DNA of 64,000 nucleotides from Enterococcus mundtii. GTDB taxonomy: Bacteria; Bacillota; Bacilli; Lactobacillales; Enterococcaceae. The notes beneath the pieces were generated by a model. That model made no database searches and was not told the DNA's origin. It saw only the letters and a program-made list of their open reading frames with translations. Of the stretch, positions 5,033 to 34,473 are shown piece by piece. The stretch's first letter is position 1. Every line of letters begins with the position of its first letter. The DNA lies in the NCBI RefSeq assembly GCF_003957375.1, contig NZ_CP025473.1, positions 2,319,501-2,383,500 on the forward strand, in the 5' to 3' direction. The position numbers were made by a program, and so were the translations under genes.

Positions 5033-6103
5033 TTAATAGCGTAATTGCAGCAGGATCGGCGATTGATTTTCTAATACTTCTGTTTCAGCAAAGATAACTT
5101 CTCCTCCATAACGCATGACTTCATAAATGATTTCATTTACGATATCTTCGACGTAGCCTTCGTCACTCGGTGAGATATCTACTAATTTGACTTGATGATC
5201 TCTAATCACTGCCTCTTGATAGTAGGCGTGATCCACAATCAATTTTTGTCCTTTTCCTTTAATTACTTGTCTGTAGATATTGGCTACATCACGCTCTACA
5301 CGCCCTTGGTTTTCCATCCCTACTATAGTGTGTAGTATCGTCTCTTTTTGATGACGAATATATTCTTGAATCACCTGATTTGCTTGCTCTCCTATCGCCA
5401 ACTCATTTTCGCCACTATCAGCTGTAAAGTTCCCATAGATTTCTCCAACAATCAGTTCATCTTTATGTGAAATCTGTTTATATGTCGCAATATTTTCTGT
5501 TGTTCCAGCTAAAATGATTGGGCGTGGATGACGATTCAAATAAGGTTGTAACTCAGAATCAATCCATTTGAAGAACTCTTTTTTGTAATTCGTTTGAACA
5601 CTTCCCATTGAATTCAATACGCGGTCTTTTGTCCAGTAGCCTTTATTCCTGATTGGGAAATGTGCGTCTTTCACTTCTTGTATCAGCATATCATCTACAT
5701 ATTCTAGTAGACGTGAACAATCCATCCCAATCGTTAACACATAATAATGGTTCATTTTACTTTCACTTCGTAAGATTTCTTTTGTATGGAAATACGCATC
5801 AATAACAAATTGACTCTCCAACACAAACGGTACTTCGATTTGTTCATTGACGCTTGGCGAAATAAAATAGACAATGCTTCCTCTTTTATGCGTAGGTTGA
5901 AAGTCTTTTAACACTTGATCGATTTTACGAATCGTTGTTTTCGCCGCTGTTGCTTCCCTTTCTTCTAACTCTAAAATAATCTGTTTTACTAGATTTTTTA
6001 ATACTAGTTTATATTTTTCAGCACTTTTCTCGTCATTTGGCATCCCTAACATGATCGTTACTGCTGGATTTTCTCTGTGGGCACTTAATTCTAAATAATT
6101 CAT
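5033..6103 (-). CDS. Bacterial archaeo-eukaryotic release-factor homologue (baeRF/Balon-like, possible ribosome hibernation factor)
   Basis: 356 residues resembling the bacterial aeRF1/Pelota-like (baeRF) group found in Lactobacillales. The N-terminal part (about 1-135, with AVTIMLGMP and HKRGSIVYFISP) is followed by a middle domain (about 140-260, with PIILAGTTENIATYK) and a C-terminal L7Ae-like domain (about 270-356). No GGQ peptide-release motif is seen, so peptidyl hydrolysis is unlikely. Balon, a relative from Psychrobacter, binds the ribosomal A site in dormant cells; a hibernation or rescue role here is inference. The ATG at 6103 has the ribosome site AAGGAG. Its promoter is of MerR type (6184-6214), shared with the catabolic locus near 31 kb, which hints at stress induction. 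Confidence 0.75.
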   Translation of the reverse strand: MNYLELSAHRENPAVTIMLGMPNDEKSAEKYKLVLKNLVKQIILELEEREATAAKTTIRKIDQVLKDFQPTHKRGSIVYFISPSVNEQIEVPFVLESQFVIDAYFHTKEILRSESKMNHYYVLTIGMDCSRLLEYVDDMLIQEVKDAHFPIRNKGYWTKDRVLNSMGSVQTNYKKEFFKWIDSELQPYLNRHPRPIILAGTTENIATYKQISHKDELIVGEIYGNFTADSGENELAIGEQANQVIQEYIRHQKETILHTIVGMENQGRVERDVANIYRQVIKGKGQKLIVDHAYYQEAVIRDHQVKLVDISPSDEGYVEDIVNEIIYEVMRYGGEVIFAETEVLENQSPILLQLRY

Positions 6104-6183: not shown

Positions 6184-6214
6184 ATGATATTGGTTAGAGC
6201 GATTCTAAGGTCAA
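6184..6214 (-). promoter_or_regulatory. MerR-type promoter of the release-factor homologue
   Basis: On the minus strand -35 TTGACC (6209-6214) and -10 TATCAT (6184-6189) are separated by exactly 19 bp. The spacer is TTAGAATCGCTCTAACCAA, which contains a dyad (TTAGA/TCTAA). Over-long dyad-filled spacers are the hallmark of promoters controlled by MerR-family activators. The same arrangement is found at 31108, 31240 and 34443. Confidence 0.8.
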
Positions 6215-27545: not shown

Positions 27546-28580
27546 TTATTTATTATCTAAATAAAGATGTGCTGGGTAGGTCATATATTGGACAGGTGCC
27601 AATTGATCGATCGTGACATAACCTGCGGCAGAGTTGACCACCGTTGGTATACGGTTGATCAAGGTTGCACACGTATGTTTTGGTGTATCTGGTTTTGTTA
27701 CTTCAAATTGCATACTTGGCGTTCCTTCGATCGACCAAGTACATAGATCGCCCTCGCCTGCTTGATACACTTTTCCAGTACAACCAACTTCAACGATTGG
27801 TCCTTGGATCGTTTCAACAGTCGCCACAGCAGACATCCCGATTGCTTCGCCTGCTCTGATCGTACGTTCCATTGTTTTCGACGAAATAGCTTTATCTAAA
27901 ACAATTGGAACATTCTTTTGAGTAATACGTTTGATCGACCAATTCATTTTAGAACAGATTGCTTCTGCCGTCATCCAAGAATACGACGGTAAATCGGTCG
28001 CGTTCGCAATTTCTTTTGCAAATTTCTCTTGATCATATCCGACCCCATGGGCTTCAGCTAACGCTTTGCCATAGTGTTCGACATCATAACTAACTTCACC
28101 GCTAATTTTTTGTACATCATTCATCCCAGCAGCCATCAAGGCTGGGAACAACACCCAGTAAATATCTTGCATTCCTGTACCTGAAATTGTGACGTTGTTG
28201 GCTTTTGCGATTTTATCTAGACGGTTAGTTTCTGCAACCGAAGTCGTCCAAGGATACAAAGCTTCTTCGCTGATCGTTAAAACATTGACTCCATAAGTTA
28301 AAGGAATCTCTAAACTTGGCATGAAGTCTTTGATATAACTAGCAATCGTTACTAAAGCGACATCTGCATCACAATTTTGAAAAACTTCGTGGGGATCATT
28401 AGAGATTTTCACTCCTAAGGCTTGGTCATATCCTAGATATAACCCTAGATCCTGACCGATTGCTTCGGGTCGATTGTCAACCGCTCCAACGATTTCAATC
28501 CCTTTTTCCATGGCATATTTGATAATCTCTTTCGACATTTTTCCACAGCCAACTTGTACCATACGAATCTTTTTATTCAT
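27546..28580 (-). CDS. 2,4-diaminopentanoate dehydrogenase-like NAD(P)-dependent oxidoreductase
   Basis: 344 residues resembling the Clostridium ornithine-pathway enzyme Ord and dihydrodipicolinate-reductase-fold proteins. The Rossmann motif is MVQVGCGKMSKEI (about 7-19); ISGTGMQDIYWVLFPALMAAG (first 20 residues shown near 152) and the C-terminal GYVTIDQLAPVQYMTYPAHLYL segment are typical. Ord deaminates 2,4-diaminopentanoate oxidatively, but no ornithine mutase or thiolase genes are nearby, so the real substrate is unknown. It is third in an operon with an aminotransferase and alanine dehydrogenase driven by a MerR-type promoter. Gap to the preceding gene is 29 nt. Confidence 0.75.
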   Translation of the reverse strand: MNKKIRMVQVGCGKMSKEIIKYAMEKGIEIVGAVDNRPEAIGQDLGLYLGYDQALGVKISNDPHEVFQNCDADVALVTIASYIKDFMPSLEIPLTYGVNVLTISEEALYPWTTSVAETNRLDKIAKANNVTISGTGMQDIYWVLFPALMAAGMNDVQKISGEVSYDVEHYGKALAEAHGVGYDQEKFAKEIANATDLPSYSWMTAEAICSKMNWSIKRITQKNVPIVLDKAISSKTMERTIRAGEAIGMSAVATVETIQGPIVEVGCTGKVYQAGEGDLCTWSIEGTPSMQFEVTKPDTPKHTCATLINRIPTVVNSAAGYVTIDQLAPVQYMTYPAHLYLDNK

Positions 28581-28609: not shown

Positions 28610-29710
28610 TTAAATTAATTCACGAACATCAGCAACTGTTCGCTCAAACACTTCTCCTACTTCAAGGCAGGTCAATTTTCCGTCAAGTGTGCTGATACCC
28701 GGTATCAGTTCTGGATAGGTTTGGATCACGTCAGTCAATGATTGAGAGGCTAATCCTTTGATATATCTCATCGTGACATTCGTCAAAGCAAGCGTAGACG
28801 TTTGGGGCACTATTCCTGGCATATTTGCTACAGAGTAATGGATTACGCCATGTTTAACGAAAGTCGGTTCTTCATGGGTGGTTGGCTGGCTCGTTTCAAA
28901 ACAGCCGCCTTGGTCAATCGCAATATCCACCAAGATCGTTCCTTCTTTCATCTGCTTCACCAATTCTTCTGTGATAAGATGAGGTGCTTTTTTACCTGGT
29001 AATAAGACTGAACCAATCACAATATCACTAGTCAATGCCATTTTCTCAATATTCGCTGGGCTTGAATAGAGCGTTTTTACTTGCCCATTAAACATCTCTG
29101 ACAATTCACGTAAGCGGTCGACATTGATATCTAAGATCGTCACATCTGCTCCTAATCCATGCAAGTAATGCGCCGCACTCACTCCGGCGATCCCACCACC
29201 TAAAATAGTTGCCTGAACCGGTAAAACACCTGTTACACCTGAAATCAATTTTCCACTTTGCTTCGCTAAAATCTCTGCACCCAATAGACCGCCTAAACGG
29301 CCAGCGACTTCACTCATTGGTGCGAGTAATGGGAATGCTCCGCTTTTCGTAACCATTTCATAGGCAATCGCTGTTGTTCCAGACTTGATCAATGCTTCGG
29401 TCAATTCAAGATTTGCGGCTAGATGCAAGTACGTAAATAAAATCAAATCTTTTCTAAAGTATTGATATTCTGATGGTAGTGGTTCTTTGACCTTGACGAC
29501 GAGTTCTGCCGACCAGATTGTTTGTGGATTCGCTTTGATTTGAGCGCCCGCTTCACGATATTGTTCATCTGTAAAGCCTGATCCTTCCCCTGCACGTTCT
29601 TCCACATAAACGATATGACCTGCTGTTACTAACTCTTTGACTCCTGCAGGTGTTAAGCCTACACGTTTCTCTGAATTTTTTATTTCTTTTGGTACGCCAA
29701 TGATTGTCAT
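28610..29710 (-). CDS. ald: Alanine dehydrogenase
   Basis: 366 residues. It begins MTIIGVPKEIKNSEKRVGLT as in Ald, has the pyruvate-site AYEMV and the NAD-binding ATILGGGIAGVSAAHYLHG (about 167-185), and the APMSEVAGRLGG segment. It interconverts alanine and pyruvate plus ammonia with NAD. Next to an omega-aminotransferase that uses pyruvate as amino acceptor, it would regenerate pyruvate, a pairing known from taurine and beta-alanine use. Ribosome site AAAGGAGG. Middle gene of the operon. Confidence 0.93.
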   Translation of the reverse strand: MTIIGVPKEIKNSEKRVGLTPAGVKELVTAGHIVYVEERAGEGSGFTDEQYREAGAQIKANPQTIWSAELVVKVKEPLPSEYQYFRKDLILFTYLHLAANLELTEALIKSGTTAIAYEMVTKSGAFPLLAPMSEVAGRLGGLLGAEILAKQSGKLISGVTGVLPVQATILGGGIAGVSAAHYLHGLGADVTILDINVDRLRELSEMFNGQVKTLYSSPANIEKMALTSDIVIGSVLLPGKKAPHLITEELVKQMKEGTILVDIAIDQGGCFETSQPTTHEEPTFVKHGVIHYSVANMPGIVPQTSTLALTNVTMRYIKGLASQSLTDVIQTYPELIPGISTLDGKLTCLEVGEVFERTVADVRELI

Positions 29711-29727: not shown

Positions 29728-31068
29728 TTATTGCTGCTTTTGCCATTCCTCAAATCCCATGTGAATGGCATCAAATAGTTGATCTGCATTTTCTTTTGAG
29801 AATGTCAATGATGGTGAAATGATAATCGTTTGTAATTCATCACGTAGCAAGACGCCTGCATTGATAGCATAATCAGCAACGGCTTGTACATTCTTTGATG
29901 TTTGTTCCACATCATATTTCCCGGTATTCTCAAAATCGATAGCGATCATCAAACCTTTTCCACGAACATCACTAATACAGTCATATTTTCCTTCAAGACC
30001 TTTTAGGCGTTCCAATAAATATGCACCGACTTCACGGGCATTCTCAACTAGATTTTCTTCTTCCACAATCCGTAAAGCTTCTAATGCTGCCACACAGCCG
30101 AGCGGGTGTCCACCGTAAGTATGCCCATGGATAATGACATTAGCTCCATTGGTCGCTGATTCGATGCCTTCAACGATGCGTTTATTAAAAACAGTAGCCC
30201 CTAGTGGAACATATCCTGAAGATAATCCTTTGGCTAGAACCATGGCATCTGGTTTGATGCCCCAGCCACGACTACCAAAAAGATGCCCTGAACGGCCAAA
30301 TCCTGTCACCACTTCATCCGCAATCAATAAAATATCATGATTGTCACAGACTTCACGTAAAGCTGGCCAGTAAGAAGTTGGTGGAACAATGATACCACCA
30401 GCACCTTGGATCGGTTCAGCAATAAATGCAGCAATATTATCTGCACCCACTTGCTCAATTGTTTCAACTAATTCAGCGATACAGAGTTTTGTCAATTCTT
30501 CTGGATCTTGGCAATTCCATTTATTTTTCTTCAAATGTGGGGAAGAAACACGCACACAATCTTGTAGACCAGGCCCGATAAATTCCCGATAGATCGGGTT
30601 ACCACCTATCGACGTTCCACCATAATGCATCCCATGATAGGCTTTTTCCAATGAAAGAAATACTTTCTTTGTCGGTTTACCTACTGCTTGCCAGTATTGT
30701 CTTGTAATTTTTAAAGCAGTATCTACTGAATCACTTCCTCCAGAAGTAAAGAATACTTTCGCCATCTCTTCTTCTTGCATCATTTGAATGATTTTTTCTG
30801 CCAAGTCATATGCCTTGGGATGGGCAATATTCGTAAACAATTGATAGTAAGATAATTTTTCCATTTGATCAGAAATTGCTCGATTCATTTCAGGGCGATT
30901 ATGACCAACGTTCATACACCATAATCCACCGACACCATCGAGTAATTTTCTTCCCGTGTCATCATAGATAAAATTCCCATCACCACGTTCGATAACGATT
31001 GTTTCTTCTTCACTTGCTCGAGTATCCGTCATTGGATGCCAAAAATACTTTTTCTTGCGATTGTTCAT
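29728..31068 (-). CDS. Class III omega-aminotransferase (pyruvate-dependent type)
   Basis: 446 residues, PLP fold type I class III. It has the opening YFWHPMTDTR, GGSDSVDTALK for phosphate binding (about 110), D251 in ADEVVTGFGRSG and the Schiff-base lysine K280 in MVLAKGLSSGYVPLGA. WHP(M) starts and this length are typical of beta-alanine/taurine/amine:pyruvate transaminases. The amino donor is not readable from sequence. First gene of the aminotransferase-ald-dehydrogenase operon; promoter at 31108-31138. Ribosome site AAAGGAG upstream of the ATG at 31068. Confidence 0.88.
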   Translation of the reverse strand: MNNRKKKYFWHPMTDTRASEEETIVIERGDGNFIYDDTGRKLLDGVGGLWCMNVGHNRPEMNRAISDQMEKLSYYQLFTNIAHPKAYDLAEKIIQMMQEEEMAKVFFTSGGSDSVDTALKITRQYWQAVGKPTKKVFLSLEKAYHGMHYGGTSIGGNPIYREFIGPGLQDCVRVSSPHLKKNKWNCQDPEELTKLCIAELVETIEQVGADNIAAFIAEPIQGAGGIIVPPTSYWPALREVCDNHDILLIADEVVTGFGRSGHLFGSRGWGIKPDAMVLAKGLSSGYVPLGATVFNKRIVEGIESATNGANVIIHGHTYGGHPLGCVAALEALRIVEEENLVENAREVGAYLLERLKGLEGKYDCISDVRGKGLMIAIDFENTGKYDVEQTSKNVQAVADYAINAGVLLRDELQTIIISPSLTFSKENADQLFDAIHMGFEEWQKQQ

Positions 31069-31107: not shown

Positions 31108-31138
31108 AGACTAAAGGGTAGAACAACTCTAAGGTCAA
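31108..31138 (-). promoter_or_regulatory. MerR-type promoter of the aminotransferase operon
   Basis: Minus strand -35 TTGACC (31133-31138), exactly 19 bp (TTAGAGTTGTTCTACCCTT), then -10 TAGTCT (31108-31113). The dyad is TTAGA/TCTA, matching the copies at 6184, 31240 and 34443. Confidence 0.8.
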
Positions 31139-31158
31139 TCTTTTTCTTATCATTTCGA

Positions 31159-31172
31159 TAAAACCGCTTACA
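31159..31172 (-). promoter_or_regulatory. Candidate cre (CcpA) site
   Basis: Minus strand TGTAAGCGGTTTTA matches the cre consensus TGWAANCGNTWNCA at nearly all positions. It lies between the two divergent MerR-type promoters, so carbon catabolite repression of both arms is plausible. Confidence 0.5.
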
Positions 31173-31239
31173 TCAGAAAAGTAAAAAATCACTTATATAG
31201 AAGAAAAAATACTTTTGTGATTTTATTTATAAAGCATAT

Positions 31240-31270
31240 TGACCTTAGAACGATTCTAACCTCTAAGATG
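31240..31270 (+). promoter_or_regulatory. MerR-type promoter of the AEC permease operon
   Basis: -35 TTGACC (31240-31245), exactly 19 bp (TTAGAACGATTCTAACCTC), -10 TAAGAT (31265-31270). The TTAGA-N5-TCTAA dyad fills the spacer. Confidence 0.82.
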
Positions 31271-31354
31271 TAATTGAGGAGGATTGGTAAACATGCACAA
31301 CTGATTCAAATAAACAAATTAAAACATTCACAAGGATTGAGGAGGAAAATTTAA

Positions 31355-34442: not shown

Positions 34443-34473
34443 AGTATAAGGCTTAGAACGACTCTAACCGCAA
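34443..34473 (-). promoter_or_regulatory. MerR-type promoter of the NAD(P)-binding gene
   Basis: Minus strand -35 TTGCGG (34468-34473), exactly 19 bp (TTAGAGTCGTTCTAAGCCT), -10 TATACT (34443-34448). The dyad TTAGA/TCTAA is the same as at the other three sites. Confidence 0.8.

Follow-up and report, generated by a model that had tools for sequence, protein, structure and literature searches.

A BmrR-like MerR protein as the probable regulator of five dyad promoters in Enterococcus mundtii

Four promoters in a 64,000-nucleotide stretch of the Enterococcus mundtii genome (the window; sites A, B, C and D) and a fifth elsewhere in the same 2.83 Mb genome (G000; site E) are, we are fairly confident, operators of one BmrR-like MerR protein encoded at G000:C1:1127148-1127933. 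In the proposed mechanism, a MerR dimer would sit on a TTAGA-N5-TCTAA dyad between the -35 and -10 boxes, and the 19-bp spacer would keep RNA polymerase alone from engaging both boxes. A small ligand filling the GyrI-type domain would then lead the bound dimer to kink and untwist the spacer, such that the promoter fires. We infer activation, the direction of control and the distortion of the DNA from promoter geometry. Sections of PMC9909328 and PMC7722741 describe MerR regulators as seated on an over-long promoter that is kinked in response to the ligand, which allows the polymerase to use both boxes. In this lineage the operator would also have come to control four units of the window beyond a P-type ATPase gene, namely two operons, one for an amine aminotransferase and alanine dehydrogenase and one for an AEC transporter and a 2-hydroxyacid dehydrogenase, and two further genes, for a baeRF protein and an NAD(P)H-binding protein. 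A first-pass annotation of the window had proposed MerR-type promoters with one regulator for all four; this is supported, and the pairing of operator and regulator is strengthened by the finding that the two tend to occur together in the 105 family genomes. The four promoters of that annotation are all retained, but the regulon comprises five.

Promoter architecture in the window and in the genome

Promoters B and C form the two arms of 31108..31270. Promoter B (31108..31138, minus strand) consists of a -35 box TTGACC (31138-31133), a dyad (31132-31118) and a -10 box TAGTCT (31113-31108), and promoter C (31239..31269, plus strand) of TTGACC (31239-31244), the dyad TTAGAACGATTCTAA (31245-31259) and TAAGAT (31264-31269), each with a spacer of 19 bp. 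The TTGACC boxes, the spacer lengths and both -10 boxes originally described for these arms hold, but the dyad is not exact in both, as direct reading and location by script give TTAGAGTTGTTCTAC in promoter B (the dyad at 31118), with one mismatch to TTAGA-N5-TCTAA. The same design had been claimed at 6184 and 34443. Promoter A (6184..6214, minus strand; -35 TTGACC 6214-6209, dyad 6208-6194, -10 TATCAT 6189-6184) and promoter D (34443..34473, minus strand; dyad 34467-34453, -10 TATACT 34448-34443) do have dyads in 19-bp spacers, but the -35 box of D is TTGCGG (34473-34468) instead of TTGACC. At all four sites the 15-bp dyad begins at the base directly 3' of the -35 box, and TANNNT follows 19 bp past that box. 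The distance from the -35 box to the central base of the dyad is seven bases, which is the rule given for 21-bp MerR-family sites in a section of PMC5045206; spacers of 19-20 bp are named as a hallmark of the family in parts of PMC9909328 and PMC7722741.

Several of these promoters can also be read with a 17-bp spacer. A rival reading on this basis, in which the dyads are operators of a non-MerR repressor over ordinary promoters, is one that we consider very unlikely. By letters shared with TATAAT, the 17-bp reading is the better one at site B (TTTAGT, 4, versus TAGTCT, 3, at 19 bp; scored in the own genome and G007) and at site E (TGTAAT, 5, versus TAATCT, 3), and the two readings tie at site C (4 versus 4). 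These scores, together with the weak -35 box of D, are also points against a MerR regulon. The letter score favours 19 bp at A, at D and at five of the seven distinct relatives' sites scored, and in eight of twelve genomes the gene adjoining the operator is itself a merR. All five own sites are readable at 19 bp with TANNNT, and only under this reading are the second-position A and the last-position T of the -10 box kept in every scored promoter.

Among 15 genomes of the genus, the window promoters are present in the own genome and two close relatives only, and promoter A in two of these three. Promoters B and C are kept in both relatives (G007 and G008) and promoter D is identical at all 31 bases, while A is kept in G007 and is missing, together with its gene, from G008. 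A six-codon micro-ORF (TTG GTA AAC ATG CAC AAC TGA; 31284-31304, plus strand) follows a GGAGGA in the interval from promoter C to the AEC transporter gene, and is kept in G007 and G008 with one codon changed.

The dyad by itself was rejected as evidence because its frequency is at chance level: with up to two mismatches it occurs 52 times in the window versus 50.7 expected, and the exact dyad is found at seven places in the genome versus eight in the reversed control. Three of the seven exact dyads were rejected as sites of this kind. These lie at 91683, which we take to be the end of an rplQ-like gene, at 493137, presumably a PerR-like box, and at 1450185, in a terminator-like hairpin. The second of these (G000:C1:493137-493151, L032; TTAGAATGATTCTAA) lies 5' of what we read as an NADH-oxidase/peroxidase-like gene.

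The full architecture, searched as TTGN3-TTAGARN3YTCTAA-N4-TANNNT with up to two mismatches, gave five matches in the own genome (four with none and one with one mismatch) versus one in the reversed control. Rather than the many random matches that the annotation had named as grounds for abandoning it, the five are the four window sites and site E, 1.2 Mb away, and all are coherent promoters. Over the 105 family genomes, 24 matches were found versus three control matches. The earlier statement that chance is unlikely is thus borne out for the whole architecture, though the dyad alone occurs at chance frequency. The idea that the sites are AT-rich palindromes lying by accident beside -35-like words draws on that frequency of the dyad, but has a negligible probability given the counts for the whole architecture and the coupling of the operator, at genome level, to one MerR. 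Chance is refuted for the set; it could still account for D alone, with its departing -35 box.

Searching the own genome for TTGACC and dyad without the -10 box gave three exact matches, one intended match with one mismatch and one other such match at 1553861. The stricter architecture search of this genome recovered none of the two-mismatch TTGACN-dyad matches located elsewhere, and a weakly conserved sixth member of the regulon could have been missed. Within the genus, genomes without this MerR have 0-2 architecture matches each, all at two mismatches, and the reversed controls reach 0-6 per genome (six in G014), so that matches at two mismatches are noise when taken by themselves. Those with no or one mismatch in the 15 genus genomes all come from MerR-bearing genomes.

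The candidate regulator and its co-occurrence with the operator

Site E (G000:C1:1128030-1128060) reads TTGACC-TTAGAGTTACTCTAACCTG-TAATCT and is located between the MerR gene, on the minus strand, and a P-type ATPase gene on the plus strand. This MerR is very probably the regulator that had been postulated but not seen from the window. A MerR-family gene with this operator therefore exists in the genome, and the operator lies 97 bp from its start codon; it points toward the ATPase gene and so is not evidence that merR controls itself.

The predicted protein has 261 residues, with an N-terminal MerR winged helix-turn-helix (PF13411, 64.0 bits; PF00376, 54 bits) and a C-terminal GyrI-like domain (PF06445, 30.2 bits, cut-off 26). 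Its closest PDB sequence over the full length is BmrR (E 3.4e-17, residues 4-261), and BmrR chains occupy all of the first eight Foldseek rows for its predicted fold (mean pLDDT 86.9; TM 0.67-0.73). Conserved ligand cysteines are a defining feature of thiol- and metal-sensing MerR regulators. The own MerR contains no cysteine, its 14 homologues contain 0-3, and the NCBIfam metal-sensor models score far below cut-off; the metal-sensor reading was accordingly rejected. Residue E238 aligns with Glu253 of BmrR, and 14 of 14 homologues carry it unchanged. Removal of this pocket glutamate from BmrR led to unpredictable changes in ligand affinity, according to a section of PMC3048380, and the conservation of E238 is for this reason weak evidence for a cationic ligand.

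A rival reading is that this MerR acts on the neighbouring ATPase gene alone, and that the window promoters answer to another regulator that recognises the same DNA. The own genome has ten MerR_1 matches, one of them (2310072) just 9.4 kb upstream of where the window starts, and four of the five sites are clustered within 28.3 kb, far from merR. Such a division is nevertheless improbable. A scan for dyad promoters with 18-20-bp spacers, covering nine of the ten MerR loci (L030 left out), found a TTAGA-type dyad near the MerR at 1127148 only, and the protein at 2310072 was rejected as the regulator with no TTAGA dyad nearby. The other MerR proteins of this genome are distant, scoring no more than 33.6 bits against the query. 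In addition, TTGACCTTAGA and TCTAACC are shared without a single difference by the window operators A and C and the ATPase operator E. Near G000:C1:1878900 (L028) there is a 76-residue truncated MerR frame with a separate candidate 19-bp dyad promoter, TTCACT-TGATTTTAAATCAAAAGGA-TAAGGT, upstream.

The assignment to one MerR is consistent with the distribution of operator and protein among relatives. Within the genus, the exact TTGACC-dyad occurs in G000, G005, G007 and G008 and one-mismatch forms in G003 and G013, and these six are the genus genomes with a MerR relative of at least 46% identity. In the family (105 genomes), the operator pattern is found in 15 genomes, the MerR profile (E<=1e-40) in 15 and both in 12. 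The hypergeometric P is 9.7e-11 with three other operator genomes counted as misses and 2.3e-13 otherwise, values that ignore kinship among the genomes and so overstate independence; six of the twelve genomes bearing both also supplied the sequences for the profile. The family pattern itself demanded TA at 19 bp, and for sites known from this search alone the spacing is therefore not independent evidence.

The operator adjoins merR in eight of the twelve, divergently in G000, G005, G007 and G008 and straight after merR in G020, G057, G077 and G081. It lies within 3.4 kb of merR, on the far side of the ATPase gene, in G003, G047 and G048, and on a different contig in G013. The three operator genomes lacking this MerR (G001, G011 and G012) have TTAAAG-CTA-CTTTAA beside a different MerR. 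There (L157, L162 and L164, around position 1500) the promoter TTGACC-TTAAAGCTACTTTAACCTG-TATACT has the same geometry with another half-site, and the gene that follows is, by our reading, ABC-transporter-like. In the three MerR genomes lacking an operator at two mismatches (G014, G026 and G033), more strongly diverged dyads with 19-bp spacing adjoin merR, and in G026 an operator at three mismatches precedes an amine-oxidase-like gene. In the MerR tree, ATPase-linked proteins are separate from those linked to amine oxidase or GNAT genes, with the deep forks left unsure by the long branches of G014 and G033. The MerR frame of G048 (G048:C11:262332-263107) is interrupted by a TGA into two overlapping pieces, and operator and ATPase gene remain.

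Target genes and the possible ligand

The first gene after promoter B (29728..31068, minus strand) encodes a class-III (omega/amine-type) aminotransferase (PF00202; NF005683 over cut-off), whose best solved relative is the omega transaminase 5lh9 (E 5e-153). It is followed by genes for alanine dehydrogenase (28610..29710, minus strand; TIGR00518, 482.9 bits, cut-off 391.85) and an oxidoreductase related to 2,4-diaminopentanoate dehydrogenase (27546..28580, minus strand; PF19328 over cut-off). Identity of the latter with 2,4-diaminopentanoate dehydrogenase itself was rejected (NF040740, 160 bits, cut-off 400). Promoter C precedes genes for an AEC-type transporter (Mem_trans, PF03547; 31355..32383, plus strand) and a D-2-hydroxyacid dehydrogenase (PF02826 and PF00389; 32419..33435, plus strand). 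Promoter D precedes a gene for an NAD(P)H-binding oxidoreductase-like protein (PF13460; 33744..34376, minus strand), and promoter A one for a baeRF-family protein, a relative of ribosome hibernation/release factors (5033..6103, minus strand; PF18845 over cut-off; NF052287, only 214.9 bits, cut-off 330).

Among the 15 genus genomes, the aminotransferase after B and the protein after D occur in three each and the protein after A in two, all of them from a single close trio. This distribution suggests that the promoters of the window expanded within one lineage around a pair of MerR and ATPase that is older. In 1-kb steps the GC content ranges over 0.33-0.42, which is uninformative about whether the catabolic locus was acquired recently.

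The class-II P-type ATPase gene beside site E (L038:6097-8688, plus strand) is the recurrent target in the genus, following the operator in G000, G003, G005, G007, G008 and G013, and is probably the ancestral one. The gene after the operator in G047 and G048 is, we assume from reading, also ATPase-like, and in G013 (L165, 1485-1575) twin divergent operators separate the P-type ATPase gene from a pair of DUF1576 genes and serve both. The closest solved relative of the ATPase is the Ca2+-ATPase LMCA1 (Listeria Lmo0841; E 8.5e-162). None of the NCBIfam Ca2+-ATPase models searched reaches its cut-off (TIGR01522, 587.5 versus 798.3; TIGR01116, 520.3 versus 703.4; TIGR01517, 444 versus 507). The M6 aspartate of LMCA1, which we take to be an ion-binding residue, is replaced in five of five ATPase sequences examined (M6 NLVASITLSY in the own protein). 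Given the missed cut-offs and the replaced aspartate, the sequence does not make a convincing Ca2+ pump.

Elsewhere in the family, the operator stands before a flavin amine-oxidase-like gene in G020, G077 and G081 and before a GNAT gene in G057. The G020 and G081 proteins, which were scanned, both match PF01593, and the closest solved relatives of the latter are monoamine oxidase 8p84 (E 1.9e-76) and putrescine oxidase 2yg7. The amine-type targets comprise the amine oxidase (PF01593) genes, possibly the GNAT gene, and the omega-transaminase-like gene with the pyruvate-regenerating alanine dehydrogenase.

An organic cation, for instance a biogenic amine, may tentatively be proposed as the ligand, given the conserved pocket glutamate and the repeated presence of amine-converting enzymes behind the operator; the cysteine-free GyrI domain argues against metals. 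Neither the ATPase nor the baeRF protein has an evident link to amines, which counts against this proposal. The best reading is of a MerR regulon that responds to cations or amines and into which an amine-transaminase locus was drawn. An extended version, which we regard as rather unlikely, is that the MerR senses amines or organic cations and the core ATPase subfamily, having lost the class-II Ca2+ site, exports them. Enterococcal lineages would each plug an amine-destroying enzyme of their own (amine oxidase, GNAT, or transaminase with alanine dehydrogenase) onto the operator, and a ribosome-hibernation-type factor would also be called up.

Known systems and biological meaning

The closest known system is BmrR of Bacillus subtilis, which shares the MerR-type winged helix-turn-helix, the GyrI-like ligand domain (∼22-24% identity over the full length, fold alignment) and the pocket glutamate. 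Its promoter Pbmr also has a 19-bp spacer, as given in a section of PMC7722741. The BmrR target, however, is a drug efflux pump, whereas here a P-type ATPase recurs, with added enzyme operons; the dyad found here, TTAGA-N5-TCTAA, is a further difference. In the BltR locus of B. subtilis, the blt and bltD products export and acetylate spermidine and spermine. Both genes are regulated by BltR, according to part of PMC9909328. As a MerR regulator of an amine-handling locus, BltR is a precedent for MerR proteins and amines, but neither a Blt-like pump nor BltD was found at the own-genome sites, which involve a transaminase and dehydrogenases instead, with amine oxidase in relatives. The metal-sensing CueR, ZntR, CadR and MerR likewise use 19-20-bp dyad promoters. 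P-type ATPases are targets in the CueR-copA and ZntR-zntA pairs. The MerR described here differs in having no cysteine and a GyrI domain in place of the metal loop, and its ATPase is class II, not of the heavy-metal type. This ATPase has the M4 PEGL motif in common with LMCA1, but in M6 LMCA1 has NLVND where this protein and the orthologues examined have NLVAS.

No published description of the regulator, operator or gene set was found in the literature, as far as titles and the beginnings of abstracts indicate. The type of switch is well known; the regulator-operator pair, its target set and the amine hypothesis appear to be new.

Our results turn an impression from sequence into a testable regulon with a named candidate regulator and five defined promoters. 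Enterococci are common amine producers in food and gut, and amine production by lactic acid bacteria is the subject of PMC6351943. If the amine reading is true, enterococci would gain a dedicated amine sensor, and a substrate class would be assigned to a group of P-type ATPases without the usual Ca2+ ligand. One operator appears to have been re-used around different enzymes in different genera, with the regulator and the promoter geometry remaining fixed.
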